The notes beneath the pieces are model-generated. The model was not told the origin of the DNA. It was given only the letters and a program-made list of their open reading frames with translations, and searched no databases. A stretch of DNA of 64,000 nt from Microglena sp. YARC (Eukaryota; Chlorophyta; Chlorophyceae; Chlamydomonadales; Chlamydomonadaceae), in the NCBI GenBank assembly GCA_022414725.1, contig CM039462.1, positions 17,992,213-18,056,212 on the forward strand, in the 5' to 3' direction. Positions 14,289 through 38,820 of this stretch are shown in pieces; the stretch's first letter is position 1, and each line of letters starts with the position of its first letter. A program made the translations under genes and the position numbers.

Positions 14289-15021
14289 GATGTTTGCTTG
14301 CATTCTGCAGTGTGATAGCAGAGTTTTGAACATCGTTGCTAATCCCTTATATGGCGAGCAGCCTCAAGGCTGGAGCCATGTCACCACTTTGATTTTAACT
14401 AAAGTTCTGTTGTCTGGTGCCATCTGCTTCAAGTGGATAGCTTTTTGTCCGTTTATTAGGTTTTCTAAACCTCAACCATCAGCATTCACACACACGCACA
14501 CATTCTCACTCCCCCCCCCCCCCCCCCCCCCCCACCACCACCACCACACACACACTTCCACACTCCCCACCACACACAAACTCCCCCCCTCCACACACAC
14601 CATAAGGGCAAATTGCTGGCTGAGGCTATGAGCTTCAAGTGGATAGCAGCCGATTGTTGTTTGCTTGCATTCTGCAGTGTGATAGCAGAGTTTGAACATC
14701 GTTGCTAATCCCTTATATGGCGAGCAGCCTCAAGGCTGGAGCCATGTCACCACTTTGATTTTAACTAAAGTTCTGTTGTCTGGTGCCATCTGCTTCAAGT
14801 GGATAGCTTTTTGTCCGTTTATTAGGTTTTCTAAACCTCAACCATCAGCATTCACACACACGCACACATTCTCACTCCCCCCCCCCAACCCCCCCCCCCC
14901 CCACCACCACCACACACACACTTCCACACTCCCCACCACACACAAACTCCCCCCCCTCCACACACACCATAAGGGCAAATTGCTGGCTGAGGCTATGAGC
15001 TTCAAGTGGATAGCAGCCGAA
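14289..15021. repeat. Direct duplication, two units of about 365 bp
   Basis: Unit 1 (14289-14653) and unit 2 (14654-15021) are almost identical, including the stretch TTATATGGCGAGCAGCCTCA and the poly-C/CCA tract. The difference is mostly in the length and interruption of the C run. A recent duplication or a collapsed/expanded assembly region. Confidence 0.92.
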
Positions 15022-15039
15022 TTGCTGGTTGCACTGTTT

Positions 15040-15659: not shown

Positions 15660-15830
15660 GTGGCCATTTTATGCTATTTGTGGCCATTTTTGACTTGGCC
15701 ACTATTTGAATTTCCTTAGGGCTTTTAACAATGTCCTCAGTGCTTGAAGGGTCAGCAGAGCTATCGGGGATGGCAGATGAAGGCTGCTTCTTGGTCTCTG
15801 CGTCGCTTGTCAAGCTAGCTAGGGTTTGCA
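15660..15830 (-). pseudogene. Partial copy of the transporter's last exon
   Basis: The minus-strand frame reads KKQPSSAIPDSSADPSSTED then IVKSPKEIQIVAK, close to the end of the transporter at 16135-16240 (KKQPSSVIPDSSADP, then IVKNPKEIQIVAK). A tandem partial duplication of the 3' end of the gene, separated from it by a family 2 MITE. Confidence 0.8.
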
Positions 15831-16134: not shown

Positions 16135-19100
16135 TTAGGGCTTTTGTGCCTTGGCCACTATTTGAATTTCCTTAGGGTTTTTAACAATGTCCTTAGGGTC
16201 AGCAGAGCTGTCGGGGATGACAGACGAAGGCTGCTTCTTGGCACCAAACTTATTTAAGCAGTACAAGGACAATGCAACCAGCAGGCCTCCGAGAATGTAC
16301 TTGTAGCTGAGAGGCTTGGGAAACACAACGAAACTGAGGATCACTTGAAACACCTGCGGAGCGGTAGTTGACAACAGACAGTGAAACCATTAAGGAGCGA
16401 CAGTCGAAAACAGGCAGTGAAACAGTTAAAACAAAATAACTCAAAACACCTGCGGAGTTGTAGTTTACAGGAGACAGTGAAACCGTTGGGGAGCGGCAGT
16501 TGACAACAGACAGTGATACCAATGAGCAGCAGTTGATAATAGACAGTGAAACAGTAAAAACAGAATCATTTGAAACACCTGCGGAGTGGTAGTTGACAAT
16601 AGACAGTGAAACCGTTGGGGAGCGGTAGTTGACAACACTGTGAATTCATTGAGCAGCAGTTCATAATAGACAGTGAAACAGTAAAAACAGAAACTGAGGA
16701 TCACTTGAAAGACCTGCGGAGCAGTAGTTGACAAAAGACAGCGAAACCATCAAGAAGCGATAGTTGACGACAGACAGAGAAACCGTCAGTCACAACAGAC
16801 AGTGAATAAGTTAGTCACAACAGACAGTCAAACCGTTGAGGAGCGATAGTTGACAACAGACAGTGAAACCATTGATGAGCGGCAGTTGACAACAGACAGT
16901 GAAATAGTATAAACAAAATCACTCGAAACACCTGCGGAGTGGTAGTTTACCATAGACAATGAAACTGTTGGGGAGCGGTAGTTGACAACAGACAGTTATA
17001 CCATCGAGCAGCAGTTGACAATATACAGTGAAACAGTAAAAACAGAAACCGAGGATCATTTGAAACACCTGCGGGATTGTAGTTTACAATAGACAGTGAA
17101 CCCGTTGAGGAGCGGCAGTTGACAACAGACATTGAAACAGTAAAAACAAAATCATTTGAAACACCTGCCGAGTGTTAGTTTATAATAGACAGTGAACCCA
17201 TTGAGGGGCGGCAGTTGACAATAGACAGTGAGACAGTAAAAACAAAATTATTTGAAACACCTGCGGAGCAGTAGGTGACAATAGAAAGTGAAACCGTTGA
17301 GGAGCGATAGTTGACAACGGACAGTGAAACAGTAAAAAAACAAAATGAGAATCCCTTGGAACACCTGCCGAGCTGTAGTTGAGATTGTACATTCAGTCAA
17401 ACTACATTGAGTCACAACTGACGATTCGGCAGTCCGGCGACGAAGAGAAGGGCATTAAGCTCAGGGATTTTTATTTCTGCTATATATAGCGATCGCTAGT
17501 TTTGACCCCGTTTCAGCAAAAATGTTGCTGTAAAAAAGTAAGAGAAAAAAAGGTTTTAACTTATTTTTGTCCTCAATTACCCTTAAAAGCTACAAAACGC
17601 TACAGAATGCACTCAAACGCTGTCCCTGGAGGAGCCCTGAAACCACGAAGCTAGAAGAAACCCACTTTCAGATTTGAAAACATAATCACTGATTAAGCTA
17701 CTAACTGATTAAGCTCCCAACTGCTTAAGCTACCAACTGCTGAAGCTACCAACTGCTTAAGCTACCAACTGCTTAAGCTACCAACTGCTTAAGCTACCAA
17801 CTGATTAAGCTACCAACTGATAGGTCATATGTAGGGTTGTCAAGTACAGTATCGTTAATCGTCTGATATATCGCGATATTATCTGATATATGATACAGTA
17901 TTGTACGATATATCAAAATATTGTAGGATGTTGTATGATATATCGCATGAAATTCTTGGGGACCAGTACGATCTTTACATCCCTAGTCACATGTTTTTCT
18001 CTCTGACACAATAACAGACGTACCAGAAAGAATCTTAATACTGTCCACAGGACAGCAATAAAACACCGTACACTGACTTGAAGGCTCGCCAGGATGGCCA
18101 AGACGTCCAAGGCTTTGCAATATCGTTTTTCTTTCAGCTCTATGTAAGGTTATCCGAACATCCGGCCAACCAAAAAATTGAAGCCTGCCACGTATGCCAA
18201 CTGTCTCATAATTAACTGGCTACAGTCAGCTCCATCATTGCCACCTTTCATCCCGTTGCCAACACACTCCGCCAATTTTCCGTGTCGCTTGCGATGCTGC
18301 ATAGAACATGTTCGACAACACATCACCATTCCGTTGGCATTCCGTAGCTGAATGGCGCCGCATGGGTCTGGCTAAACCAGGGGCTAAACTAGTCAGAAAT
18401 GCCCCCCCAACCCTATGCACTAATTCCATATGAGTATATGCTGCCTTACCCGCATTCCGCCGCTGCATGGCGCCGCACGGGTCTGGCTAAGCAAGGCGCT
18501 AAACTAGTCAGAAATGCCCCCCCAACCCTATGCACTAATTCCATATGAGTATATGCTGCCTTACCCGCATTCCGCCGCTGCGTGGCGCCGCACGGGTCTG
18601 GCTAAGCAAGGCGCTAAACTAGTCAGAAATGCCCCCCCAACCCTATGCACTAATTCCATATGAGTATATGCTGCCTTACCCGCATTCCGCCGCTGCATGG
18701 CGCTGCACGGGTCTGGCTAAGCAAGGCGCTAAACTAGTCAGAAATGCCCCCCCAACCCTATGCATTAATTCCATATGAGTATATGCTGCCTTACCCGCAT
18801 TCCGCCGCTGCATGGCGCCGCACAAGTCTGGCTAAGCAAGGCGCTAAACTAGTCAGAAATGCCCCCCCAACCCTATGCACTAATTCCATATGAGTATATG
18901 CTGCCTTACCCGCATTCCGCCGCTGCATGGCGCCGCACGGGTCTGGCTAAGCAAGGCGCTAAACTAGTCAGAAATGCCCCCCCAACCCTATGCATTAATT
19001 CCATATGAGTATATGCTGCCTTACCCGCATTCCGCCGCTGCATGGCGCCGCACGGGTCTGGCTAAGCAAGGCGCTAAACTAGTCAGAAATGCCCCCCCAA

Positions 19101-20288
19101 CCCTATGCACTAATTCCATATGAGTATATGCTGCCTTACCCGCATTCCGCCGCTGCGTGGCGCCGCACGGGTCTGGCTAAGCAAGGCGCTAAACTAGTCA
19201 GAAATGCCCCCCCAACCCTATGCACTAATTCCATATGAGTATATGCTGCCTTACCCGCATTCCGCCGCTGCATGGCGCCGCAAGGGTCTGGCTAAGCAAG
19301 GCGCTAAACTAGTCAGAAATGCCCCCCCAACCCTTATTATCAGCGCTCCTACATCAGCAGCTTCCCTGATAGGGTAGCCAAAGACTCCAGCAATCATGAG
19401 TATCAAATTAAATTATTATTAGCACTATAGCCTTGCGCAAGCTACCTCAGCAGCTTCACTGGTAGGGTAGCGAAAGACCCCAGCAATCATGATTATCAAA
19501 TTAAATGTGTAATTAAATCATGATCAGAACCCATACCTTGCGCAGGCTCTTGACCACTTCTGCGTTGGTAGATCCAAAGTTTTTGATAAGCAAGAGAATA
19601 AGGCAGACAGTGATGTAGCCGAGCACAGAGAATGCGCAGATGTAGGGAACCGTCTGTGTGTGGCGCTGTGAGTGAGCTATTGCCTCCCAGATCTCCCCTG
19701 CACAGCACAGTTCGAATCATCTCAAATCATTCGACCAATTTCAAGTTGGAGTCATAGGGAACCGTCTGTATGAGACGCTGTGATTGAGCTATTGCCTCCC
19801 AGATCTCCCCCACACAGCACAGTTCGAATAATTTCAAATCATTTAGCCAAGTTCAAGTTCAAGTCATAGGGAACCGTCTGTATGTGACGCTGTGATTGAG
19901 CTATTGCCTCCCAGATCTCCCCCGCACAGCACAGTTCGAATACTTTCAAATCATTTAGCCAAGTTCAAGTTCAAGTCATAGGAAACCGTCTGTGTGTGAC
20001 ACTGTGAGTGAGCTATTGCCTCCCAGAGCTCCCCCGCACAGCACAGTTCGAATGATTTCAAATCATTTAACCAAATTCAAGTTAGAGTCATAGGGAACCG
20101 TCTGTGTGTGTCACTGTGAGTGAGCTATTGCCTCCCAGATATCTCCTGCAGTGGTGGTGGTGGTGGTGGTGTGTGTGTGGGGGGGTGGGGGGTGGGCAAG
20201 GCTGGAAGGAAATATGTACAACATGCAGAGCAGCCCCAGAGTCAGCTATTGCCTCCCACATCTTTGCTGCAGTGGTTGTGGTGGTTGT

Positions 20289-20344
<56 letters not shown>

Positions 20345-20446
20345 GAGAGGCTGGAAGGAAATATGTACAACATGCAGAGCAGCCCCTGAGTCAGCTATTG
20401 CCTCCCACATCTTTGCTGCAGTGGTTGTGGTGGTTGTGGTGGTTGT

Positions 20447-20486
<40 letters not shown>

Positions 20487-20613
20487 GGGGGGGGGGGGGG
20501 GACGGGCAAGGCTGGAAGGAAATATGTACAACATGCAGAGCAGCCCCTGAGTCAGCTATTGCCTCCCAGATCTTCGCTGCAGTGGTTGTGGTGGTGGTTG
20601 TGGTGGTGGTTGT

Positions 20614-20677
<64 letters not shown>

Positions 20678-20794
20678 GGGGGAGAGGCTGGAAGGAAATA
20701 TGTACAACATGCAGAGCAGCCCCTGAGTCAGCTATTGCCTCCCAGATCTTCGCTGCAGTGGTTGTGGTGGTTGTGGTGGTTGTGGTGGGTGGGT

Positions 20795-20825
<31 letters not shown>

Positions 20826-23481
20826 GGGGGGGGCAAGGCTGCAAGGAAATAGGTGCAACATGCAGAGCAGCCCCTGAGTCAGCTATTGCCTCCCAGATCT
20901 CCCCTGCACAGCACAGTTCGAATCATTTGATCACCGTCCTTGCTTGATGTGAAAAAAGAAAAGAAGAGAAGAAGAAAAACATGTAACAGTCAAATATTGT
21001 TGTGTTGACGCTTTGAATGAGCCATTAGCTCCCAGAGCTCCCCTGCAGTGGTGGTGGTGGTGGTGTGCGTGTGAGGTGTGTGCGTCGGGGGGGTGGGGGA
21101 GTGGGGGGGGAGGAGGTAGCAAGGCTTCAAGGTAATAGGTGCAACATGCAGATCAGACCCTGAGTCAGCTATTGCCTCCCGGATCAGACCCTGAGTCAGC
21201 TATTGCCTCCCAGATCAGACCCTGAGTCAGCTATTGCCTCCCAGATCAGACCCTGAGTCAGCTATTGCCTCCCAGAGCTCCTCTGCACGCTGCAGTTCGA
21301 ATCATTTGATCACCGACCTTGTTTGATGTGTTTCAACATTTCAAAATGCAACAATAAAAACATATATGTACATGAAGTAATTGACCATACACATCCACCA
21401 AATTGCCATTGTTGTGGTGGTGAGGGTCACTGGGTGGGTAGGTGATGTTAGGTGTTTGTGGTGGTATGGGTGATATATATATGTACATGAAGTACTTGAC
21501 CATACACATCCACCAAATTGCATATTTGGGTATCCAGGGGTATCAGTGATTTTTTTTAAATCTGAAAGTGGGTTTTCTCAAGCTGTTTGGTTTTAGGCCT
21601 CCTCCAGGGACAGTATTTGTGTAGATTTTTGTAGCCTCTATAGCTTTTAAGGGCCATTTAAGGCAAATAAAAAACGGCAAGTTGGGCCAAAACGGTGTCA
21701 AAAGTAGCGATCGCTATATAGAGCGGGGAAACAATCCCTGAAGGGTACCATTCAGGGATATTTTTTTCAATTAAAAAAGAGGAAATCTTATTCCTTTTTA
21801 TTTTATTACTCCCTGTTTTCCTCCCAAAACAGCATCCTTATTCCGATTTGGGTCGATTGGGGTCATATTTAGTCAATTTCAGCAGATTTCAGTGGAAAAA
21901 AAAACATTTTTTATTTTTAGGTTTCTTATTCCGGCAACTTGGGCCAAAATGGGGTCTCGTATTCCGATCGGAATGTATTCAGAAAAAATATCCCTGGTAC
22001 CATATCAAAGCATTGCAATAGTGATCCTTGTTACGCCTCTGGAGGGCACTCACTTTAATTAATCAGCTTGAAGTAGCCGGACAACAATAAAAACAAAACA
22101 AACTTTTCAAAAACCCATATTTCCAAAATGTGACCGTCAAGACATATCCCTACATGAATTCCAAGAATATACATATTCACAAAATATCCAGGGGGGCACA
22201 GATGCACATACACCATGACAGAGAATTAGAGGAGGGTGTAAGCGGTTGATTCCGAAAATCCGGTGAAATTCTATGGACACTTTTCTGCCCCCCCCCCCAC
22301 CCCACCCCCTCCCCCCCCACCCCACCCCTCACACACACACGTTCACCCACCCACCCCACCTACACTCCAGACCATTTCCAACTTTTCCAGGTAATTCTAA
22401 CTTTTTACTGTTCGTTTGACTTCAGCCATGGACAGATTGCAATAACGCGGTCGTCATGCATTGCATATGGGAGGGGGTCGCGACCGTGTGGGATGAGGCT
22501 GGACGAGGGGTACTGCTCGAGCGGTTCACAACAACTCTCAGCAGGCAAGGTTGTTGACTTGCCATCCAAAGTTGACGGCTCTAAAGATATACAATTACTC
22601 TAAAGATACACAATTACTCTAAAGATATACAATTACTCTAAAGATATACAAATAATACAAAATGCTAAGTGAACTATCTCGTCATGATCTTGATTGATTT
22701 TCAGCACTCCAATGCGACCACCCAACTTAGCTAGCTAGCTATGGGCTGGCTATGGGCAACTAAAATGTTATGTTTTCTCTGCTTCCACTCAATATGGTGG
22801 GGGTTCACCCGGGTGTCACTGATGTAATGTTAAAGAAGAGATCATGTGCTGTCAGATGAGCTAACTTACACACACATTATTTTGAGGGCTTGCCCCCCCC
22901 CCCCCCCCCCCCCCCCGGCCCCCCCTTCATAAATATTTCAACTTTTTAAACCCCATCAGGGAGTATGTTTGTTGGCACCCTCCTGGTGAAACCAATAAAA
23001 CGATTATTAAAAGATAATCATTGTGAAAACAGAATCATGATTATAAAAATAAAATGTTGTGACACCAACAATACGAGTACACAAAGAAAATCATTGTGAA
23101 ATCCACCAAAAGATTTTTAATAAGAGACAGGGGGGGGGCAACTTCAAACCAAAATGACCCCATCGTCCAACTTTGCAGATATCATAGAGAGGATGAAGAA
23201 TCCGCTTTTATTTTTTGATTTGGCCCAGTAGAAAAAAAGTGACGGTCGTCCTAAGTTTGGGGCCGCGGGGGAAGGGGAGGGGGTGGTGAAGGAAAAAATC
23301 TGACATTTTCAAAAAATTAGGTACTTTCCAGGCACTTTATTCTAGCCCCCAGAATGACATGGGAGTGGAACTAGGGTGTTCTTCTACTAAATACCAGTCA
23401 AAAAATGCTATTGGGGGAGAGACCCACCACATATTTTGCCCCGGGCACATGGGGGGGGGGGGGGGGATGGGGGGATCCAGG

Positions 23482-23573
<92 letters not shown>

Positions 23574-26500
23574 CCCTCTCCCTCTCCACACACAACGCCC
23601 TAACCAACATTTGTACAACGACGTACAGAGCAAGACCTCTTCTTTTTCCCTTCCCGTCACTGTGCGTCTGTTTTTGTTCTGGTGACTAGTGCTAGTTGAT
23701 GTTATTCGATGGACCAACAATCAAAGGGCACTACCTGCGACAAGTGCGGTAAACAATTGCTTAGCGGCGACCACGGAAACTTAGGGCGCCATCAGAGTTC
23801 TCTTGCGTGATTGGCTGATTATTTAATGCCTGATTGAAACTTGGATTGAAGAACTGATTATTGAAGGCCTGATCCTGGCCTGATTATTGAAGAATATTGA
23901 AGGTGGGTACATTAGGGGCCAAGGGGCCCTGACCCACAAGCCCCACCAAACAATGTTACATTGATGATGATGATTTTCTATGTTTCAAACATTCCCAATG
24001 GTCTCTAGACCAACCTCAATGGATAGGCCTTTGAAAACCCTGTAAAATGAGCCTAATTAGACACCATTACACTGTGTGGTGGCTGAGATAGTGACTGTAC
24101 AGTGGGTTCCGGAGCCGGGGGGGGGGGGGGGTCTGCGGCAGGGTGCTTCGGCACTTTTTGGGATGGGGTCTTTCATTTTTTTTTTGCCCCCCCCCCCCTT
24201 GATAAGAAACCCGTTTTTTAAACCAACAAAACGATTACAAAAATAAAAACATTGAGACACCAACAAACCAATTCTTAAAAAATCGTCATTGCATAACTAA
24301 CGAAACGATTATAAAAGAAAATCATCGTGAGACAAAAAAAACAATTATATAAAAAATTGTTGTAAAACCCGTGTGAAACCAACAAAACGATTATAAAAAG
24401 AGCATCATTGCCAAACCAACAAACCAATTATAACAATAAATTGTTGTGAAGCCCGTGTGAAACCAACAAAACAATTATAGTTAGAAAACCGCTGTGAAAC
24501 CAACAAAACGATTATAAAGAGAGCCCCCGCACCTGATGCTAGGATGACAAAGAAGGACTCAGCTGCGGCAAACAAGCTTAGGTACAGCATGACCTCGGAG
24601 TGTGAGCATGGGGTCTTGATGCGGAAGAATTTTTTCTCCTCTAGGTTGGCTGTCATGGCATCACACATCTGGTAAACAGCAGGAGGACAAAGGTTTTAAA
24701 CATGCTAGCCGCCCTTATCTAAGGCTAGTTGGCTTGGGGTGAGTATTTGATGTGGGATCGTAGTGGTGCATAGGATGGCGTTTCATCTGAAGTGGATCTT
24801 AAACAGGCTGGCCGCCCTTATCTAAGGCCAGTTGGCTTGGGGTGAGTACTTGTTGTGGGATCGTAGTGGTGCATAGGATGGTGTTTCATCTGAAGTAGAT
24901 CTTAAACAGGCTGGCCGCCCTTATCTAAGGCCAGTTGGCTTGGGGTGAGTACTTGTTGTGGGATCGTAGTGGTGCATAGGATGGTGTTTCATCTGAAGTA
25001 GATCTTAAACAGGCTGGCCGCCCTTATCTAAGGCCAGTTGGCTTGGGGTGAGTACTTGTTGTGGGATCGTAGTGGTGCATAGGATGGTGTTTCATCTGAA
25101 GTAGATCTTAAACAGGCTGGCCGCCCTTATCTAAGGCCAGTTGGCTTGGGGTGAGTACTTGTTGTGGGATCGTAGTGGTGCATAGGATGGTGTTTCATCT
25201 GAAGTAGATCTTAAACAGGCTGGCCGCCCTTATCTAAGGCCAGTTGGCTTGGGGTGAGTACTTGTTGTGGGATCGTAGTGGTGCATAGGATGGTGTTTCA
25301 TCTGAAGTAGATCTTAAACAGGCTGGCCACCCTTATCTAAGGCCAGTTGGCTTGGGGTGAGTACTTGTTGTGGGATCGTAGTGGTGCATAGGATGGTGTT
25401 TCATCTGAGGTAGATCTTAAACAGGCTGGCCGCCCTTATCTAAGGCCAGTTGGCTTGGGGTGAGTATTTGTTGTGGGATCGTAGTGGTGCATAGGATGGC
25501 GTTTCATCTGAAGTAGATCTTAACAGGCTGGCTGCCCTTATGTAAAGCCAGTTGGCTTGGCTTGGGGTTGATACTTGTTGTGGGTTTGGGGTAGTGAGTA
25601 GGATGCTTCTGCTGTGGGTTGGTTGTTGGCATTGGTTGGCTGTGTGATGTGTGCGTTGTCGGATTGATGGAAGCGTAGGAGTGGAGCCTCGAGGTTGGCT
25701 GTCATAGCATGGCGCATCGGGTTAACAGCAGGAGGACAAAGGTTTTAAACATGCGGGGTTGGTACTTGTGGGTTTGGGGTGGTGTGTAGGATGCCTCTGG
25801 TGTGGGTTGGTTGCTGGCATTGGGTTGGCTGTGTGCGTTGTTGGTTTGTTGAAAGCCTAGGAGTGGAGCCTCTAGGTTGTCTGCCATAGCATCACACATC
25901 TGGTTAACAGGAGGAGGACAAAGGTTTTAAACATGCCGACCGCCCTTATATAAGGCCAGTTGGCTTGGGGTGGGTATTAGTTGTGGGATCTGTGTGGTGC
26001 ATAGGATGGCATCTCACCTCAAGTGGATCTTAAACAGGCTGACCGCCCTCATGTAAGGCCAGTTGGCTTGGGGTGGGTACTTGTTGTGGGTTCCGGGTGG
26101 TGTGTAGAATGCCTCTGGCGTGGGTTGGTTGTTGGCATTAGGTTGGCTGTGTGCGTTGTTGGTTTGTTGAAAGCGTAGGAGTGGAGCCTCTAGGTTGTCT
26201 GCCATAGCATCACACATCTGGCTAATTGCAATAAGACAATGGTTTTGCTGGTCGCCCTTCTCTTAGGCCAGTTGGCTTGGCTTGGGGCGGGTACTTGCTG
26301 TGGGTTCGGGATGGTGTGTAGGATGCCTGTGGCGTGGGTTGGCTGTGTGATGCGTGCGTTGTCGGATTGATGAAAGCGGAGGAGCCTCTAGGTTGGCTGT
26401 CGTGGCATCGACATCTGGTTAACAGCAGGAGGACAAAGGTTTTAAACAGGCTGGCCGCCCTTACCTCAGGCCAGTTGGCTTGGCTTCACACATCTGGCGT

Positions 26501-29500
26501 ACAGCAAGAGACACAAACATGTTTTTAGCAGAGCCCCCTCTTTAAGGGGGCGGGAGCCCCCAGGGGTAGGGTCACCCCGTTGTCCGTGCATGTGACCGTC
26601 TGAACGAGACGAAGCCTGACACGTCAGCCAACGGTCTCTTAACTAACTCGCTTCCGTTGCCACCTGTCGCTCTGTTGCGAACTCTCACCACCATTTTGTA
26701 GCGTCGCTTGCGACGCTGCATAGAACTTGTAATACGAACACTGGTCAGAGATTTGTGTACCTGCTACCCATCCCGATCGCTACTTCCAATCGCATTGGCC
26801 GAAATGTCCGCTACCTGAGACCCGAATGGTGATCCCAGCACTCAGACCCAAATCTGTACCCAGAACCCAAATCTGTACCCAGAACTCAAATCTGTACTCA
26901 GAACCCCACCCCACCCCAAATCTGTACCCAGAACCCCAATAAACACAATTTACTACCCAGGAGGACTAAGATTTTAATAAGGACACTGGTTTACATTAGG
27001 ACGCACATTTGCAAAAGAGTCGATAACCGTGCGCAAGGGTCGATGTGTCCTAAATTGTATTTTCCTCTGCGAGCAGCAGCTTCTAAGCGGCTCCCCTGGC
27101 TTTCTACCTAGCCAAACCTAAAGCAACGCAGTGCACCTGGAAGCTGACAGAATCATTGTTCCATTACTATTGAAATCGTGGAGCGTAGCCCAGTGACTGG
27201 CTCATGGAGCAGCCTTGAAGCTGCTAATCATAGAGGAAAAGAAAAGCCATGTGATATATAGAGCTGGAAAGAAAAGCCACGCAATGTGTTGGGGTGAAAA
27301 AAAGCACTGTGAAATGTACAGCTGAAAAGAAAAGCTGCGTGATGTGTAGGGCTGAAAAGACAAGTCATATCAGTCACATGCAGTGTTGCAAGCAACGCGG
27401 AAAATTGGTGGAGTGTGATGGCAACGGAACGACAGGTGGCAACGGACTGGAGCCGACCAAATCCAGTTAGTTATGAGACGGTTGGCTGAACTGTCAGGCT
27501 TCAATTTTTCGGTCGGACAGACAATAGGGGCTCCTGCCCCCCAGAAAGGGGGGCTCAGCCAAAAAGCCATGTGATGTGTGGGGCTGGAAAGCATGTGGCG
27601 GGATGTGATGCGGCTGAAAAGCATGTGGCAGGATGTGATGTGGCTGAAAAGCAAGTGGCGGGATGTGTGGGGCTGAAAAGCAAGTGGCGGGATGTGATGT
27701 GGCTGAAAAGCATGTGGCGGGATGTGTGGGGCTGAAAAGCATGTGGCGGGATGTGATGTGGCTGAAAAGCATGTGGCGGGATGTTTTCAGGATTCGAGTC
27801 TTTGAGAACTAACTGATGATTGGTTGATACCGTGCCGGACGTGTAACCCTGTGTGGGGGGGGGCCTACCTGGCCCCAGGCCGACTTGATACCGTGCCTTG
27901 CAGGACACCACACCGGACTAAGATGATTGGTTGATACCATAGGAAGTATAGTTGTTGACCAGATCGCTTGAGGATGACACGTCACCCAACCGTCTCGGAA
28001 CTAACTGGCTTCGGTCCGCTCCAGTCCGTTGCCACCTGTCAATCCAATAGCCAACACCCTCCGCCGCTCTAGAGTGGCACTAAGAATCTCAAATTGTATT
28101 GGATAATGTGAGAGAGGAGAGAAAGGCTTTCAGTGATTTACAATGGTCTAGTGGTTGACCAGATTGCTTGAGGATGAAGAGTCGGGGGTTTGACTCCCCC
28201 TTCAGTCGCTCTTGGCGTTGCAGGTCGTCGTCAACTTCGATGGTAGCTTGTCCAGTTGAGGTAGGAGACCACTCCCCACCCGCGTACGACGGGCTCCCTT
28301 AACACTACGTCCCACCAGGCGTTGTCATTACCTTTAGGAAGTATATCGGCTTTTTGACGATCTATCTTTAGTGACTTCAGTGACTTCAGTGACTTCAGTG
28401 GCTTTTTGATGATTTATCTTTAGTGACTTCAGTGACTTCAGTGGCTTTTTGACGATTTATCTTTAGTGACTTCAGTGACTTCAGTGGCTTTTTGACGATT
28501 TATCTTTAGTGACTTCAGTGACTTCAGTGGCTTTTTGACGATTTATCTTTAGTGACTTCAGTGACTTCAGTGGCTTTTTGACGATTTATCTTTAGTGACT
28601 TCAGTGACTTCAGTGGCTTTTTGACGATTTATCTTTAGTGACTTTAGTGACTTCAGAAATTCAGGGACTTCGAAAAAAGCCTTGTAAAACGTCAAAACGT
28701 CAAATGGAGATAGGCGTCAGAACTTGTGAAAAGTCATAACCTTGTAAAACGTCAAATGGTGATAGACGCAAAAAGACAGGAAAGCTATAGACATGATAAC
28801 TGATCGAGTGATTATGCAAAACGCATTTTGGTTTTCACCAAAACGAGGTAAATAAAAGAAAACGAGATAAATGAATGATAATCTTACCAAGGCCAGCGAA
28901 ATGAGGATAATGCCTGTGTTAGCAAAGTTGGGGGTACCGGCTGCATCTCCAGAAGTGAAGAGTGCTATCCCTGCTACTAGCCCGATACCAGCACCGTACT
29001 GCGCCAGGGTGTACTTCTGGCCGACTATTAAGCTGCGGAAGCCCATGACTGGCAAGATTCGGCAGGACTTGAACACGATGCGAGTCGCGTAGTTGAGGTA
29101 TGTGAGCGCCCAGTTGGTGAGGTACGCACCTCCCATGGCGAGAAGGGAGATCATGAAGTAGTCCTGGAATGGAAGGTGATGCGGAGGGGGTCATGGAGGG
29201 TATGTGTGTATGCGTGTGCGTATGTGTGTGTGGGTGGGGGGTGGGGGGGGGGTCAGGGAGGGTATATGTGGGTGGGTTTGTGGGTGGGTTGAAGCTAATG
29301 TGCGGAAGCCCATTACTGTTAAGATTTGGCAGGACTTGAAGTATGCACAATGCAAGTCGCGTAGTTGAGGTATGTGAGTGCCCAGTTGGTTAGGTAAGCA
29401 CCTCCCATGGCGAGAAGGGAGACCATCAAGTAGTTCTGGAATAAGAGGGGGGGGGGGGGGGGGGGGGGGGGAGCTGAGCCAACAGGTATAATTGAAGTTG

Positions 29501-30063
29501 TTGAGGTATGCGAGTGCCCAGTTGGTTAGGTAAGCACCCCCCCAATGCGAGAGGGGAGATCATGAAGTATTCCTGGCATTGGGGTTGTAGGGGGTGTTGC
29601 TGGTAGGTGTTATTGGGGGGTGTTGGAGTATGGTGCTGTTGGGGGGTGTTGTTGGGGGGAGTTGTTGTAGGTGTTGTAGGGGGTGATGTTGGGGGTGTTG
29701 TAGGGGGCGTTGTTGGGGGTGTTGTTGGGGGTGGGAGGGTGTGGTTTAGGTGAGAGGCAGGGGAGGTGTGTGCGTATATGGGTGGGATTCTTCACTCTTG
29801 CACATGTGATGTCATACTTGGTCTTCGCTGCAAGGCATGGGTGGGTGGGAATGGTGTGGGTGGGTGATAATGGCATGGGTGGGATATCAGATATGTGAGC
29901 GCCCAGTTGGATAGGCTAAAGTTACCATGAACATACGATATCATATGATGCAATTTGTATGAGATCATACTCCCCTTTGGTCAACATCGTACGATATGCC
30001 GTTCCCTACTAGTGGCCCACGCCAGATTACTAGAAACGGACCCTGTTGGAGTGTGTGTGGGGT

Positions 30064-30101
<38 letters not shown>

Positions 30102-33100
30102 TCCATGGTGCCTTTGTCTGACACAATGTACCACCCACCCACCAACCCCCCTGCCCCCCACCCCCCTCCACCCCCTACACAAGCACCCACCTTCTACCCA
30201 AACATACCCCTCACCCCCCCCCCCCCCCCTGTGAAGCTCACACCTGAGTCACGTCCCGCTGTCTACACCGATGTAATTACAACAAGTGCCCAGGGGTTGG
30301 GTGCAGTCGTGTTCATACTCCCCATGTTTACTCCGCCCAGTACTACCCACACAGCCATGGGAGTGCCCTACCACCAGTCACACAGCCACGAGACACTGGT
30401 GTGGGGTGCAGTAGTGCTTATACCCCCCATGTTTACTCCGCCCAATACTATCCACACAGCCATGGGAGTGCCCCACCACCACCAAAATAGCCATGAGGGT
30501 GCCCTACCACCATTCACACAGCCGCGAGACATGCTGGTGTGCGGTGCAGCAGTGTTTAAACTCCACATGTTTCTTCTACCTACAGAGGGTGAGCGGCCTA
30601 ACAGCTGGTAGATCACACCAAAATGCGATCAAACCAATATTATGCAATTTTATCCAATATAATCAATCCAATATAATGTAATCATATAAAGCCAATGTAA
30701 TCAAACCAATAAAATGTAATCTTATCAACCAATATAAGCAAACCAATATAATATAATTTTATCAAACCAATATAATCAAACCAATATAATGTAATCTTAT
30801 CAAATCAATATAATGTAATCTTATCGAACCAATATAATGTAATCTTATCAAACCAATATAATCAAACCAATATAACGTAATCTTATCAAACCAATATAAT
30901 CAAATCAATATAATGTAATCTTATCAAACCTATATAAAGTAATGCAATCAAACCAATAAAATGTATAATGTAATGTAATCAAACCTATATAATAAAATGT
31001 ATAATGCAATGTAATCAAACCGAACTGTAGCTCACCCTGATTCGCCCATGCCTCTGGTTGTTCCTGGTGACTGCTGTCTCAACCCAGCCACATGCAGCGT
31101 AAGTGACATATGTTACGAATGTCATCCAGCCGCCAAAATTAAAACCGTCGATGCGAAAGACATGCTCTTGGAGCATTGAAAAACCTAATGCGCTTATAAT
31201 TGATCTGTATGGCGGAGGGTGAGGAGGGGTGGGGTGGGGTGGGTGGGTGGGTGGGTGGGGGTCAGGGTGGGGGTGAGAATGAGGGTCAGGGGGTCAGGAT
31301 GGGGGTGAGAGTGAGGGTGGGGGGGTCAGGGTGGGGTGAGAGTGAGGGTGAGAGTGCCAGCCATCCAGAAGCCAAAATTGAAACCAGCGATGCGAAAGAC
31401 ATACTCTTGGAGCATAGAGAAACCTAATGAGCAAACATTTGATCTGCGTGATGGAGGGTGGGAGGGTGAGGGTGAGGGTAGGGGTGGGGTGAGAGTGCCA
31501 GCCAGCCAGCCAGCCGCCAAAACTAAAACCAGCTATGCGAAAGACATGCTCAATGAGCATTGAGAAACCTAATGAGCTTATAGCTTATAGCTGATGTGCA
31601 TGATGGAGGGTGAGGTGATAGGGGTTGGCTCTTGACAGTTGACTTCTGCATGACGGAGGGTGCGTTGGTAGGGGTTAGTTCTTGGAGCATTGAGAAACCT
31701 AATGCGCTCATAACTGATGTGCATGATGGAGAGTGAGGTGATAGGCGTTAGCTCTTGACAGTTGACTTCTGCATGACGGAGGGTGCGTTGGTAGGGGTTA
31801 GTTCTTGGAGCATCGAGAAACCTAATGCGCTTATAACTGATGTGCATGATGGAGGGTGAGGAGATAGGGGTTAGCTCTTGACAGTTGACTTCTGCATGAC
31901 GGAAGGTGCGTTGGTAGGGGTTAGTTCTTGGAGCATCGAGAAACCTAATGTGCTTATAACTGATGTGCATGATGGAGAGTGAGGTGATAGGCGTTAGCTC
32001 TTGACAGTTGACTTCTGCATGACGGAGGGTGCGTTGGTAGGGGTTAGTTCTTGGAGCATTGAGAAACCTAATGCGCTTATAACTGATGTGCATGATGGAG
32101 AGTGAGGTGATAGGGGTTAGCTCTTGACAGTTGACTTCTGCATGACGGAGGGTGCGTTGGTAGGGGTTAGTTCTTGGAGCATTGAGAAACCTAATGAGCT
32201 TATAGCTGATCTGCATGATGGAGGGTGAGGAGATAGGGGTTAGCTCTTGACAGTTGACTTCTGCATTACGGAGGGTGCGTTGGTAGGGGTTACTTCTTGG
32301 AGCATTGAGAAACCTAATGCGCTTATAACTGATGTGCATGATGGAGGGTGAGGAGATAGGGGTTAGCTCTTGACAGTTGACTTCTGCATGACGGAGGGTG
32401 CGTTGGTAGGGGTTAGTTCTTGGAGCATTGAGAAACCTAATGTGCTAATAATTGATCTGCATGATGGAGGGTGAGGGGATGAGAGTGGGGGTGAGAGTGA
32501 GGGTGAGGGGGTCATGGTGGGGTGAGGGGGTAGGGGTTAGCTCTTGATAGTTGACTTACGCATGATGAAATGTCATGGTTTGACCAAACAATGTTGCATG
32601 GTTCTTCAGCAAACTCTGGGCTGCTCACCATCTGCCAATTACAAGCCCCCCGTGCGATACCCACGGAAACCAGGGAGCACACTAAGCTGATTAAATAGTT
32701 TAAAGACTTGTCCAGTTCATTTGACAGCAAAACAGGATGCACTGCACGCTGGAGTACAGCATGCTTGTGCAGCGGAGATTTGTTCTGCTACCTATCCTGA
32801 TCGCTACCTCAGACCCCGTTTTGACTGAATTGTTCACCACCTGAGACCCCCGAATCCCCCAGCTCTCGGGGGGCGCTGCCCCCCGAACACCCCGGGCGAC
32901 CCTACTAAAGCTACCAGGACTCAGTCTCTGGAGGAGGCCAAACCCATGAAGCCACCAGGTAACCCACTTTCTGAACTGGGAAAAAAACTGTTGTGCAGAG
33001 CTGTAACCTTCAACATCTGCATACACACCACCACCACCGTCCACCCCTGCAGCCCAGCGACCACTATATGGACCGCCACAATAATGAAGGACCACCCACC

Positions 33101-35265
33101 CACAACCACCACCCACAACCACCACCGTCCACCCATGCAGCCCAGCGACCACTATATGGACCGCCACAATAGTTCAGGAACACCCACCCACCACCACCAC
33201 CCACCCACAACCCACTACCACCCACCCGCTACCTCCCACCCAAGCTAAGAGGTAGACATGCATGCTACGAAGCAGGGGTCAGGTTGTTTGGGTATGGGTG
33301 GGAATTTTATTTATTAGCATGAAGGGCGCGTTAAATTTTAAAACATGAGAGAAATGGGGAAACATGCCTCTTAAGGAGTAGAGATGGGAGGTGACATTAA
33401 TAGGTACTGGCATATCATATGATGTTGACCAAAAGCGAGTATGATCTCATACAAACTGCATCATATGATGTTGACCAAAAGCGAGTATGATCTCATACAA
33501 ACTGCATCATATGATACTGTGTATAAATGGTAACTTTAGCCTCGCCAGACTGCCGGCATCATATGATATCATATGATGACATGATATCATATTGCCTATC
33601 ATATTGCCTATCATATTGCCTATCGTATTGCCTATCCTATTGCCTATCCTATTGCCTATCCTATTGCCTATCCTATTGCCTATCCTATTGCCTATCGTAT
33701 TGCCTATCTTATTGCCTATCCTATTGCCTATCCTATTGCCTATCCTATTGCCTATCCTATTGCCTATCCTATTGCCTATTGCCAATCATATTGCCCATCG
33801 TATTGCCTATCATATTGCCTATCATATTGCCTATCATATTGCCCATCATATTGCCTATCATATTGCGTATCATATTGCCTATCATATTGCCAATCATATT
33901 GCCTATCATATTGCCTATCCCAACATTAAAGACATTAAAGTTGGTATCATATCTTTATTGTAAGACCTCTCCAGGATGTTGTTGAGTGAGCTTGTCTTGG
34001 GCCAACAATGGCCTGCCTATGACAGTATAATGTAATGTAATATGACAGGGTATTCTCTAGCTATGACGATGGTGTACCCGGGGATGCTGGTGGGATAAGG
34101 TAGCTCGAGTGCAAGACACGCTATTTGCACAAGGCCTGACAGATGGGGGCAAGTGAGTGTGAGTAAACCCTGTGAACCAGGTATTGTTTCTGGGTAGAAG
34201 TGGAGCAGATGGTAGCTCCTGACTGCATGCTAGGCTAAGAGAAGACAGGGATAGGGCCGAATTGGATGACTGGCTCCCATGATAGGCTTGGTTGTTGTGA
34301 TCCCTGCCAGACGTCTCTATGCCGAGGCGCGTCCGCTCCAAGCAGCTTGCACCCACATCACAATCCACACCACAATCAACACCCTCACCAACACCCGTGC
34401 CCACACCAATATCCACACCAACACTCACACCCATATGCACACCAACACCATCACCAACACCCATGCACACACCAACAACCTCCCATGGCCAGGAAAGAGC
34501 TCAAGCTGCCTTGAGACCACATGCCTTAACAAACGATGGCAGGTATAGGGAAGCATGGAGTGGCCATCTGACCAGATCCCACAGCAGAATTCGTTGGTGT
34601 GATCCCGGTGCGGCTGTTCTATGCCTATACGTGCCTTCACACAACAGCTTGGGCTATTGCTTGCCATAGGGTGGCCAGATCTGATGGTGGGCTAGGCTGT
34701 TGTTCATACTCTGGGCTTTCTGTGTGCACCACTACTCTAATCTGTGTGGGAGATCTCTACGTTGAACTGAACGTCGTCATTAGCTCAGGCTACCTTGAGC
34801 CAAAGAAAGCATGCGCTACTCACCCAACTGCCAAGGTAGCGAACAAAACATTCGATTGTCGTTCTGTCATTTTGGGCTTCTCGGCCTGCAGTTGCACACA
34901 ATGGGCAATTGAGAAGGTTTAAATAATCGGGCTGACAAAAGCGTAGGACTCGCAACCCGGGTGGCGGTAAAAGAGCAAATAAGTAGCGGGCAGCGGGAAG
35001 AGCCAAGGGGGAAACTCCAGTGCCGCTAATCAGCTTATTCTCTGGGATACTCAGGAGCTGCTCACAAGACTGCGTATTTTAGAACGCTTCGGAGATGAAG
35101 ATGCCGTTGACTGCTCACCTCTAACCCCCCACGCTCTGCGTCTTTGGCCGACATGCTTTGTGATGCTTCTTCTGTGGAGCTTTGCGCGTTGCCTTGAGTG
35201 TCTAGTAGAGGTGCAGATTCCGGTAATTTTGTATCCTGGCTTTCTCCAGGGGAGCATTCGTTCAT
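16135..35265 (-). CDS. PAPS transporter-like protein (SLC35B2/SLC35B3 type), split gene
   Basis: Probable multi-pass Golgi/ER transporter that imports the sulfate donor PAPS; the substrate is inferred from family likeness. Exons on the minus strand: 35119-35265, 34824-34885, 31036-31184, 28888-29163, 24533-24668, 19537-19697, 16135-16353. Every intron edge has GT and AG, and the phases agree at all joins except between 34824 and 31184, where phases 2 and 1 require one more small exon that I did not find. Landmarks: LQEHVFRIDGFNFGGWMTF, LNYATRIVFKSCRILPVM, then FTSGDAAGTPNFANTGIILI and ILSFVVFPKPLSYKYILGG, in the order seen in SLC35B3-like proteins. The start ATG at 35265 follows an in-frame TAG. 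The known exons give about 382 residues; the family usually has 400-430. The N-terminus has an ESAPLL acidic dileucine motif. About 94% of the gene is intron, mostly tandem repeat. Confidence 0.88.
16354..17395. repeat. Intronic array carrying copies of the last exon's acceptor
   Basis: Degenerate units of about 90-180 bp. Each contains CACCTGCGGAG, the acceptor of exon 16135-16353 (true site 16351-16361); further copies start near 16447, 16576, 16711, 16929, 17066, 17162, 17258 and 17362. Several also keep 15-25 nt of exon (for example ACTGAGGATCACTTGAAA near 16693). Between them lie gttgacaacagacagtgaaac units. Confidence 0.9.
17462..17691. mobile_element. hAT-like MITE, family 4, copy 1
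   Basis: 230 bp starting CAGGGAT and ending ATCACTG, flanked by the 8-bp duplication ATTAAGCT (17454-17461 and 17692-17699). Contains ATATATAGCGATCGCTAG and a CTGTCCCTGGAGGAG segment shared with copies at 21544-21740 and 57877-58082. Confidence 0.88.
17692..17825. repeat. 16-bp tandem array built on a target duplication
   Basis: About eight units of ATTAAGCTACCAACTG with variants (CTTAAGCT, CTGAAGCT). The first eight bases are the right target duplication of the adjacent hAT-like MITE. Confidence 0.88.
17833..17985. mobile_element. AT-rich palindromic element, family 3
   Basis: Starts TAGGGTTGTCAAGTACAGTA and ends CAGTACGATCTTTACATCCCTA, an imperfect inverted terminus. The interior is a series of GATATAT palindromes, and CTTGGGGACCAGTACGAT matches the family 3 copy near 13050. 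A TA target is likely. Confidence 0.7.
18366..19333. repeat. 115-bp satellite array, about 8.4 units
   Basis: GTCTGGCTAA recurs at 18366, 18481, 18596, 18711, 18826, 18941, 19056, 19171 and 19286, an exact 115-bp period with only a few substitutions per unit. The first unit is the most diverged. The array lies inside the last intron of the transporter. Confidence 0.97.
19698..20905. repeat. Intronic array carrying copies of the acceptor of exon 19537-19697
   Basis: The exon start and acceptor (GAGCTATTGCCTCCCAGATC on the plus strand, true copy near 19674) recur about every 112 bp at 19786, 19898, 20011 and 20124, then in longer units near 20246, 20396, 20553, 20731 and 20881 that also hold TGG and (GT)n expansions ending in G runs. 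Four more short units lie at 21160-21275. Confidence 0.92.
21140..21290. repeat. Tandem 35-36-bp units with exon-derived sequence
   Basis: Four units of CAGACCCTGAGTCAGCTATT plus GCCTCCC(A/G)GAT; the GCTATTGCCTCCCAGA part is the exon start from 19697. Confidence 0.88.
21544..21740. mobile_element. hAT-like MITE, family 4, copy 2 (inverted)
   Basis: 197 bp from CAGTGATT to CAATCCCTG, in the opposite orientation to copy 1. The flanking 8-mers AGGGGTAT and AAGGGTAC match at 6 of 8 positions, an aged target duplication. Confidence 0.75.
21741..24230. other. Intron DNA with simple repeats
   Basis: No exon found. Contains: a C-rich tract at 22287-22330; three or four TCTAAAGATATACAATTAC units at 22578-22650; a C run of about 24 near 22893-22916; repeated aaacgattattaaaa motifs near 23000-23120; a (TGTC)n run of about 21 units at 23486-23572; and a G run near 24118-24131. 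Confidence 0.6.
24235..24520. repeat. Degenerate array of ACCAACAAAACGATTATAAA units
   Basis: About seven units, 30-60 bp apart, each with accaacaaaacgattat and a following atcattgtgaaa-like half. Confidence 0.8.
24690..25560. repeat. 103-bp tandem array, about eight units
   Basis: CTTAAACAGGCTGGCCGCCC recurs at 24798, 24901, 25004, 25107, 25210, 25313, 25416 and (one base short) 25519. Units are nearly identical. The array lies next to the exon at 24533-24668. Confidence 0.96.
25680..26510. repeat. Intronic array carrying copies of exon 24533-24668's start
   Basis: Units of 180-300 bp. The minus strand of several repeats the exon start ATGTGTGATGC(C/T)ATG with its CCAG acceptor (copies near 25900 and 26218; degenerate ones near 25730, 26415 and 26490). 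Two encode MCDAMADNLEAPLL, close to the true exon's MCDAMTANLEE. Confidence 0.9.
26580..28075. repeat. Intron DNA with dispersed repeats and a short array
   Basis: Related segments at 26590-26700, 27415-27510 (inverted) and 27955-28075 share AACGGTCTC-type and GTTGCCACCTGTC motifs. CGTCGCTTGCGACGCTGCAT near 26702 is related to 18270-18300. At 27570-27790 there are seven or eight units of AAGCATGTGGCGGGATGTG. A family 2 MITE lies at 27070-27235. Confidence 0.65.
28100..28340 (+). mobile_element. tRNA-derived SINE, copy A
   Basis: The head has pol III box A-like TGGTCTAGTGGTTGACCAG (28144) and box B-like GGGTTTGACTCCC (28182). A tRNA-unrelated body (AGCTTGTCCAGTTGAGGTAG) follows, then the family tail TACGTCCCACCAGGCGTTGTC ending near CATTACCTTT. 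Copies B-E share the tail. Confidence 0.85.
28355..28680. repeat. 44-bp tandem array, about six units
   Basis: CTTTTTGACGATTTATCTTT plus AGTGACTTCAGTGACTTCAGTGG units, with a nested 10-bp AGTGACTTC repeat. Confidence 0.93.
29290..29575. repeat. Intronic copies of exon 28888-29163's 5' half
   Basis: 29290-29440 repeats about 140 nt of the exon with its acceptor (GCGGAAGCCCATTACTG, TTGGCAGGACTTGAAG, TCAAGTAGTTCTGGAA). 29490-29570 repeats a shorter part. A fragment near 29893 (GATATGTGAGCGCCCAGTTG) is a third. A G run of about 24 lies at 29448-29471. Confidence 0.9.
29580..29730. repeat. GGGGGTGTTG-type minisatellite
   Basis: Repeated tgttgggggtgttgtaggg units of 9-18 bp. Confidence 0.85.
29890..30010. 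mobile_element. AT-palindrome TA-type MITE, partial copy
   Basis: Contains GATATCATATGATGCAATTT and ends CGATATGCCGTTCCCTA, the terminus of the family also seen at 33400-33960, 54494-54664 and 61637-61829. A poly-G tract (30066-30099) follows. Confidence 0.7.
30280..30560. repeat. About 108-bp tandem units, two to three copies
   Basis: CCCATGTTTACTCCGCCCA recurs at about 30322 and 30428; a third, diverged unit starts near 30510. Confidence 0.85.
30610..31020. repeat. AT-rich minisatellite, CCAATATAATGTAATCTTAT
   Basis: More than ten units of 16-34 bp, all variants of aaaccaatataatgtaatcttatc. It ends 16 bp before the donor of exon 31036-31184. Confidence 0.95.
31190..32480. repeat. 123-bp array carrying the acceptor of exon 31036-31184
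   Basis: The plus-strand string CTTGGAGCATTGAAAAACCT at 31168 (acceptor plus exon start) recurs in variants near 31407, 31548, 31683, 31806, 31929, 32052, 32175, 32298 and 32421. From 31631 the period is 123 bp (CTTGACAGTTGACTTCTGCA at 31631, 31754, 31877, 32000, 32123, 32246 and 32369). The first two units (31200-31560) also copy about 45 nt of exon and hold (GGGTGAG)n. Confidence 0.95.
32578..32690. repeat. Dispersed repeat family 5 (inverted copy)
   Basis: Reverse complement of the CTCCCTGGTTTCCGTGGG...GAGCAGCCCAGAGTTGGCTG unit found near 13180, 39963, 40428, 40968, 41158, 51655 and 52308. Confidence 0.8.
33020..33240. repeat. ACC-rich duplication
   Basis: Two units of about 95 bp with GCAGCCCAGCGACCACTATA (about 33049 and 33137), joined by ccacca/cccacc repeats. 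Confidence 0.85.
33400..33960. mobile_element. AT-palindrome MITE expanded by a 10-bp array
   Basis: The left part matches the 61637-61829 element (GCATATCATATGATGTTGAC, GCCAGACTGCCGGCATCATA), with one internal 60-bp duplication. The right end (33590-33925) is replaced by about 33 units of ATTGCCTATC and variants, a unit resembling the element's own terminus attgccgatcccta. Confidence 0.85.
34000..34823. other. Intron DNA, mostly unique
   Basis: Contains a CACACCAACACC-type degenerate repeat at 34345-34470. The small exon required between 34824 and 31184 should lie here or nearby, but I could not identify it. Confidence 0.5.
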
Positions 35266-37062: not shown

Positions 37063-38820
37063 CTACTTAGGGGGACGTCTGTACGTGGGGGGTATCGCCC
37101 CACGCTTGCAATTTACCATTCCCAGCAAACCATTCAAGAACCAGAACTGCTCAGCTTCTAGAGCTTTGGTGAGGGTGTCAGCTAGCTGCAGTTTGGTATC
37201 TACCTTCACGATCCCAATCCTCCCAGACATGGCTAGATCTCGCACATAGTGATGCATAATATCTATGTGCTTCGCACGGGGCACCAGAGCTACTTCAGCA
37301 CACCAGGAGTTGGCCACGGTAGAGTCACACTGAATTGTGATAAGGGTGCAAGGGAGCCCAAGGTCAACCCTCAAATGCTTGAACCATTGGACATCCCGAG
37401 CAGCTGCTGCAAGAGCCTGGTACTCAGACTCGCCCGTGCTCACCGCGGGAGTGATCTGCCTCTTAGAGGCCCAGTGAACTAACCCACCAGATGCCAGAAT
37501 AGCTAGGCCGGTCTGGGACCTCCTGCCCTCAGGATCCTCACCAAACGAGGCATCTGAATATGCTTGTACAGCAAACTCAGGGCCATGGCGATAGCGAATG
37601 CCAAGGTTAGGATACTTCCTGAGGTAAACCAACACACGATGAGCAGCACGCCAGTGTGTCTGAGTGGGTTTTGCAGTAAACCGTGAGAGTGCAGACACAG
37701 AGTATGCAATGTCAGGTCTGGTGCATGTGGACAGGTAGATCAGTGATCCGATGAGTGAAGCATACATGAGGTTGTTGGGCGGGGCAGGGCTGTCAGCAGC
37801 ATGTTTGGTGACAGCCCCAGTAATCCTAGAAACATGAGGGGACTGCTTAGTCTCATCATCGAGAGCAATGGGGAATCTCTCCAGCATACAAAAAATCTGG
37901 TTGTGCTGGCTGATAACAATAGAGACACATCGCCCAGCACTGTCAAGGGTGAGGTCACAGTCGATAGACAAGAAAACCTTCGGAACCCCCGTTTCAGTCA
38001 CTGTCCACTCTTCTTTCCGCATGATCTCAACGATCCTGGCGTACAGAAGGAGACAGCGTAGCGCAACCCAGAAATCGTCAACGCAGGTGAGCACCCATGA
38101 GACAGTTCCATCAGGCATGAGACGGATAAACAGTGCAGGGTCAGCCTGCGCAGGAGTAAAACCTGCAATCCTAAGAACACGACGCACCTCCTCGCTCCAC
38201 TTGCGAGGGGATTGCTTCAGCCCATAAAGGCTCTTAACTAGCTTGCAGACCCAACCCCCAGGAACAATACAACCCTGTGGTTGTTCCATGTAGATCTCTT
38301 CCTCCAAAACCCCATTCAGAAACGCCGTCTTGATGTCCAGCTGCCTGGCATACATCTTGTTGTGCACCATGCCAGCAAGCAAGGTTCGCAAAGTCGATTT
38401 CGAGGTTACTGGGGCGAAGGTCAAGTCATAATCGATCCCAGCCCGCTGCAAGTACCCCTTAGCTACTACCCGAGCCTTCTACCTTACTACTACCCCATTG
38501 CCACCGTGTTTGAAGGTGAAGGTCCACCGATTCTTGATCGGAATTACTCCAGGGGGACATTTGACAAGCTGCCAAGTCCCATGCGCATGCAAACTCTCCA
38601 TCTCGTCTCTCATGGCTAGTAGCCAGCCGTCCCTGTCGGGGTTGGAATGTGCCATGGCTTGGTTGTAGGAGAGATCAGAGGAGGTTGATAGGTATGCAGG
38701 CAGAGTGAGTCCTGGGGACTCTGACAGAGGTTCAGGGGTATCTCCACCTGAAGCCGAGCCAGAGCCCGAGGATGCATCAAGGAAGAGTGGTTTGTCAACT
38801 AGTGCGCAGGGGTAAAATGT
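37063..38820 (-). pseudogene. Ty1/copia polyprotein fragment: reverse transcriptase and RNase H
   Basis: Main frame 38451-37063 (462 residues): ARQLDIKTAFLNGVLEEEIY, GLKQSPRKWSEE, the catalytic strand as CVDD rather than the usual YVDD, then ASLIGSLIYLSTCTRPDIAY, RNase H with AYSDASFGED, STGESEYQALAAAARDVQW and QLADTLTKAL. The upstream part in another frame (38820-38479: WLLAMRDEMESLHAHGTWQL, PIKNRWTF) is the start of the RT domain; the frame breaks near 38460-38480. Integrase, protease and gag are absent because the sequence ends at the subterminal repeats of the enclosing hAT-like element. In an intact element this enzyme copies RNA to DNA in virus-like particles. It is not functional as it stands. 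Confidence 0.93.

Follow-up and report, generated by a model that had tools for sequence, protein, structure and literature searches.

Five long introns of a transporter gene in Microglena sp. YARC contain repeated copies of their own 3' splice junctions

The transporter gene and its exons

The window analysed here is a stretch of 64,000 nucleotides (nt) from contig CM039462.1 of the green alga Microglena sp. YARC (assembly GCA_022414725.1). Its minus strand carries a gene for a transporter of the UAA/PAPS type (PAPS, adenosine 3'-phospho 5'-phosphosulfate), whose seven exons, e0 to e6, span positions 35265 to 16135 (Table 1). As a preliminary description of this DNA had stated, all five long introns of the gene hold copies of their own acceptor together with the start of the next exon, and we conclude that these introns have been lengthened by duplications that include the exon-intron junction.

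The protein read from the joined exons matches the Pfam UAA transporter family (PF08449; E 4.2e-45, residues 13-291), and we assign the gene to the UAA/PAPS (SLC35B) type from this match, its substrate being a predicted one. The closest named relatives are chlamydomonadalean (Chlamydomonas eustigma, 66%; Haematococcus lacustris, 68%; Astrephomene, 66%; Volvox, 63-64%), and several relatives carry the JGI label "adenosine 3'-phospho 5'-phosphosulfate transporter B3". The query protein used for the Pfam and relative searches was without four residues at the e1/e2 joint. The best match of all is the EukProt protein P0001 (gene5542-4178_t), which agrees with each exon residue by residue in tblastn, the C-terminal tail excepted, if overhangs of the alignments into the introns are disregarded. 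Adjacent stretches match EukProt genes 5540, 5546, and 5547, and this run of gene numbers around 5542 indicates that EukProt probably holds gene models of this same assembly.

Joined together, the exons keep an open frame, a manual reading of the splice phases agrees, and the exon starts are conserved coding sequence in the relatives. Four of the five exon starts proposed earlier (16353, 19697, 24668, and 29163) proved right, while the fifth, 31184, has to be moved by 20 nt to 31204 because P0001 has the residues SIIS before ALGFS.

Two side observations concern the gene models. The tail of e6 is duplicated about 450 nt downstream (15687-15794 versus 16143-16241), and the C-terminus of P0001 is taken from the downstream copy, the upstream copy likewise reading to a stop. 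A close relative of the transporter, P0002 (EukProt gene2985), has no counterpart to about 22 residues with which exon 2 begins. This stretch is the one copied in intron 2 here, and the gap may be an error of gene prediction brought about by a similar array.

Copies of the 3' splice junctions in the long introns

Each of the six introns was searched with the first 60 nt of the downstream exon, with the exon middle, and with the last 60 nt of the upstream exon, using 60 dinucleotide-preserving shuffles per test. Copies of the exon start scored above the best shuffle in five of the six introns (9, 3, 4, 14, and 2 copies), and copies of the exon middle or of the exon end did so in none of the six. 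Intron 1 (34886-35118, 233 nt) gave no junction copies in the exon-start search against shuffles, and the earlier term "gene-wide" accordingly holds for the five long introns and not for this short one. A second search, in which the last 15 nt of the intron were added to the exon start, returned 39 junction copies at a score of at least 32 (9, 3, 5, 14, and 8 in introns 2 to 6), all of them direct. Aligned to the exon boundaries, the copies do contain exon sequence, 9-130 nt of it against the 10-150 nt estimated before, and 34 of the 39 extend across the acceptor position, with the intron end contiguous with the exon start.

The same picture was obtained when the first 100 nt of each exon were compared by BLAST with the whole 64 kb on both strands. 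There were 32 non-self matches (9, 3, 4, 14, and 2; E 1e-34 to 1e-4), every one of them in the intron directly upstream of its own exon and in the same orientation.

Two origins of the copies were considered and rejected. An introner or transposon origin is excluded within the 64 kb by the BLAST placement in the adjacent upstream intron only, and copying from spliced RNA is ruled out by the contiguity of intron and exon in 34 of 39 copies, which shows that the junction was copied as DNA.

Table 1. Exons of the transporter gene and repeated sequence in its introns, in window positions
Feature	Position	Strand	Remarks
Exon e0 (N-terminal, MNECSPG...)	35119..35265	-	tblastn with P0001; donor GTGAGC
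Exon e1 (AEKPKMTERQ...)	34824..34885	-	tblastn with P0001
Exon e2 (SIISALGFSMLQ...)	31036..31204	-	tblastn 31203..31036, 100% to P0001; acceptor CATACAG/ATCAATT
Exon e3 (DYFMISLLAMGG...)	28888..29163	-	tblastn with P0001
Exon e4 (MCDAMTANLEEKKFF...)	24533..24668	-	tblastn with P0001
Exon e5 (GEIWEAIAHSQRHTQ...)	19537..19697	-	tblastn with P0001
Exon e6 (VFQVILSFVVFPKPL...), read to stop codon	16135..16353	-	P0001 instead joins e6 to the downstream tail duplicate
Junction copies, intron 2 (9)	31362..32471	-	two copies reach exon nt 82, seven reach exon nt 39
Junction copies, intron 3 (3)	29301..29910	-	exon end points 130, 75, 68; the third holds exon nt 47-68 only
Junction copies, intron 4 (5)	25687..26506	-	exon end points 31 or 24
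Junction copies, intron 5 (14)	19755..21288	-	exon end points 55, 28-29, 43
Junction copies, intron 6 (8)	16436..17379	-	exon end points 9-33 (33, 23, 14-17, 9)
Array of 103 bp x 8.4	24696..25560		Tandem Repeats Finder; between e4 and the intron 4 junction copies; relation to the acceptor suspected by eye only
Donor-side array, intron 3	30628..31021		units match the intron from +14 on; no exon sequence
Donor-side array, intron 5	24205..24517		units match the intron from +8 at the earliest; no exon sequence
Two-copy tandem duplication, probably spanning the e5 donor with 12 exon nt	19341..19548	-	12/13 junction nt identical; seen by eye, then scored

Extent of the copies and of tandem arrays

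The distance from the acceptor to the farthest junction copy amounts to 32-44% of each long intron, or 6,469 of 17,728 nt (36%) in total. The claim that the introns are built from junction copies is therefore too broad, although such copies do occur in all five. The remainder of the long introns consists of single-copy sequence and of other arrays without exon sequence. Arrays with a period of at least 8, as called by Tandem Repeats Finder (TRF), account for 31% of the window and for 37-67% of each long intron, and several lie over junction copies (19643-20140, 31583-32480, 25578-25936, and, in several rows, 16358-17338); no such row covers the junction copies of intron 3. Only at e5 does a TRF array run into the exon, the nearest copies at the other exons being either more diverged or set apart from the exon. 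The last 10 nt of the intron are reached by an array at e5 and, in part, at e6. The sequence lying between the nearest copy and the exon is 157 nt long in intron 2, 137 nt in intron 3, and 1,018 nt in intron 4.

Since arrays cover so much of these introns anyway, the previous inference that growth is anchored at the junction has to be divided: the duplications do include the junction, but anchoring to it does not follow. If array coverage is taken as the chance level, the probability that all five acceptors are affected is about 0.03 and that 5 of 6 are affected about 0.11, a loose comparison in which the copies were defined by alignment and the coverage by TRF.

At the donors, the same search with 15 or 60 nt of intron found no exon-containing copy at a score of at least 28, and the units of the donor-side arrays in introns 3 and 5 leave out the GT. 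A single weak case is the duplication at the e5 donor, where positions 19536-19548 are copied at 19431-19443 with a score of 21 (500 single-base shuffles gave a 99th percentile of 18 and a maximum of 24), and which probably spans the donor.

This near absence of exon copies on the donor side, together with the involvement of five out of five long introns and the different exon end points within each, is what could be expected if acceptors were hot spots of duplication. According to this main rival explanation, some property of the 3' end of the intron, such as C- or CA-rich pyrimidine tracts, R-loops, or stalled forks, would repeatedly start duplication, and introns would grow from the acceptor. 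GT and G runs in some intron 5 units could be read in the same way. The excess at acceptors is modest, however, given the array coverage, and a predicted 3,337-nt intron of a neighbouring gene has repeats up to position -18 of its acceptor without any exon copies. The density of runs of at least 8 G or C is also the same in the transporter gene as in the preceding 16 kb (0.88 per kb in both), with only the following 28.7 kb lower (0.31). We therefore regard acceptor hot spots as rather unlikely.

Divergence and fate of the copies

The copies show 2-18% difference from the exon, and indels are present in 7 of the 39. In two sets, copies were also compared with one another, and there the differences reach 7 of 33 and 3 of 24 nt. 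Differences of this kind bear on whether the copies could be an artefact of misassembly or of wrong exon boundaries, a suspicion that frame breaks in the neighbouring SET/MYND gene region, which could be sequencing errors, might raise. Copies diverged from the exon and among themselves are not expected from duplication during assembly, and wrong boundaries fit poorly with conserved exon starts and an open frame across the joined exons, which makes an artefact highly improbable.

The 34 copies that span the acceptor position carry AG in 25 cases, AC in 5, GG in 3, and CG in 1. By our own estimate, this retention of AG is about what the divergence of the copies would give. For each of the 25 AG-keeping copies, splicing at that copy with the remaining intron kept in the transcript would lead to a premature stop before the true exon, and the predicted model P0001 uses the exon-proximal acceptor at all five long introns. 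The retained AGs could nevertheless be taken as a sign that the copies are functional, either as decoy acceptors or as ratchet acceptors that regulate splicing or allow the stepwise removal of long introns, the more so in intron 6, where eight of eight copies keep AG in the AG/GT form of a recursive splice site. Only e6 begins with GT, however, while e2 to e5 begin with ATC, GAC, ATG, and GGG, so the acceptors of the other four long introns do not have the recursive form. The premature stops speak against such a role as well, as does the replacement of AG by GG in the three copies nearest e5, and we consider functional copies very improbable, even if uneven change among codon positions (see below) could hint at coding use in the past.

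Among distinct substitutions in the exon-derived parts, 27 of 82 are synonymous, against 21% for random change (p 0.015). One synonymous base is common to all nine intron 2 copies at a position where the exon differs, which fits part of the synonymous excess being a change in the exon itself. The differing exon end points in each long intron suggest either several duplication events per intron or fewer events followed by later truncation.

How the introns may have lengthened

We favour, as a likely explanation, ordinary tandem duplication of DNA in a repeat-rich genome, tolerated across acceptors since the exon-proximal acceptor is the one used. Tandem duplication appears to be a general local process, as shown by arrays over 31% of the window and over a third or more of each long intron. 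At the DNA level it could proceed by replication slippage, unequal exchange, or end joining. A duplication that crosses an acceptor would survive where the downstream copy has kept enough intron in front of it to work as a splice acceptor. Splicing in the cell would then use the copy that adjoins the intact exon, and the remaining copies would turn into intron and decay. This tolerance could come about through exon definition. In long introns, the splice sites closest to each other across the exon are reported to be preferred (PMC9225289), which fits the favoured explanation.

Several observations weigh against it. The use of the exon-proximal acceptor is taken from the gene model P0001, which may not rest on RNA data. 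Differences between copies and exon number 55, 25, and 63 at codon positions 1, 2, and 3 (p 7e-5, from non-independent counts), and distinct changes 30, 16, and 36 (p 0.02), so plain neutral decay of the copies fits incompletely. A steady rise of divergence with distance from the exon was looked for and not seen (among the intron 5 copies, 43 of 44 nt match in the one at 20918..20875 and 64-66 of 70 in the three nearest), and orderly outward growth is therefore not supported. The most serious difficulty lies in the donors. Exon definition predicts similar tolerance there, yet acceptors are affected in five of five long introns and donors in one of five (p 0.048, in a small sample), and by copy the counts are 39 and 1, the copies not being independent. 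This asymmetry is the unexplained core of explanation by tolerated tandem duplication.

A more tentative extension, which we think possible but on balance doubtful, is that lengthening works as a ratchet. Acceptor-spanning duplications would arise again and again at the same 3' junctions. With growing intron length, exon definition would make the exon-proximal acceptor dominant, and the next junction duplication would in turn be harmless. Acceptors, and not donors, would then be growth points of introns throughout the genome.

Relation to known systems

The preliminary description knew of no system of this kind, which was too strong, as a tandem genomic duplication crossing an intron-exon boundary has been published for the potato RdRp gene, where one additional spliced intron was produced (PMC4974935). 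In both cases the duplicated segment comprises the last part of an intron, with its acceptor, and the beginning of the following exon; here the boundary is crossed in the 34 spanning copies. The potato gene underwent one such duplication, which gave a new intron, whereas here many copies lie inside existing introns, five of them, and the gene model P0001 predicts no new spliced intron at the duplication sites. Acceptor duplication that is repeated in every long intron of a single gene and taken up as added intron length did not turn up in searches of open-access literature.

The TRF arrays over junction copies consist of head-to-tail units of tens to about 180 base pairs (bp) and can be called minisatellites. 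Minisatellites and satellite DNA in introns (for satellite DNA of volvocine algae, see PMC8226300) likewise have head-to-tail units in this size range that diverge and are re-amplified; unlike them, the units here include coding sequence of the host gene and a splice junction. Intron gain by tandem duplication of an exonic AGGT resembles the present case in that splicing hides a duplication that includes exon sequence. The difference is that here the acceptor and flanking intron are copied, and introns lengthen instead of arising.

Introner elements provide another example of intron sequence with a repetitive origin. They have this origin in common with the copies described here, but the latter are local and carry the start of the host exon, and within the 64 kb they match only their own upstream intron, with no related copies dispersed in the introns of several genes.

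Intron lengthening is usually attributed to transposons. The transporter gene makes another route visible at several stages in one gene, in which the acceptor is duplicated together with part of the exon, and its five introns give an unusually clear picture of one way in which introns can grow. An intron that holds several copies of its own acceptor, up to eight of them with AG kept, is also a natural competition experiment on the choice of 3' splice sites, and hence a natural test of how the cell chooses the correct one, while the asymmetry between acceptors and donors is a prediction that can be tested on whole genomes.

Neighbouring genes and other sequence in the window

The neighbouring gene with the 3,337-nt intron is EukProt gene5540 (P0067), and this predicted intron lies among arrays, with repeats close to both of its ends. 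No exon-containing copies were found at either end of the two introns predicted for this gene, in a model that rests on one EukProt protein. On the minus strand at 42464-47596 lies a low-complexity open frame of 1,711 amino acids, whose residues 200-1420 matched only P0067 when used as a query; one predicted intron within it is itself open in frame.

Pfam scans of 50 open reading frame (ORF) entries, a subset of those in the window, gave one match above the cut-off, a MYND finger, with weak matches to B-box and DUF2561 below it. A scan of five ORFs, one of them common to both sets, recovered the transporter and a copia reverse transcriptase, and in addition a TPR repeat that fell slightly short of the cut-off. 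Besides the transporter, no conserved multi-exon gene was found in these Pfam scans of part of the window's ORFs, and Rfam found nothing at gathering thresholds.

The copia-type reverse transcriptase (PF07727, E 6e-34) lies upstream of the transporter gene, at 37063-38478 on the minus strand. At 5755-8348, also on the minus strand, a gene region with a MYND finger and TPR-like sequence (EukProt gene5546/5547) contains frame breaks, and a decayed second copy of it occupies 232-1645 on the plus strand. Downstream of the transporter gene, at 14291-15032, a 366-bp unit with C-runs inside occurs twice, the two copies matching at 97%.

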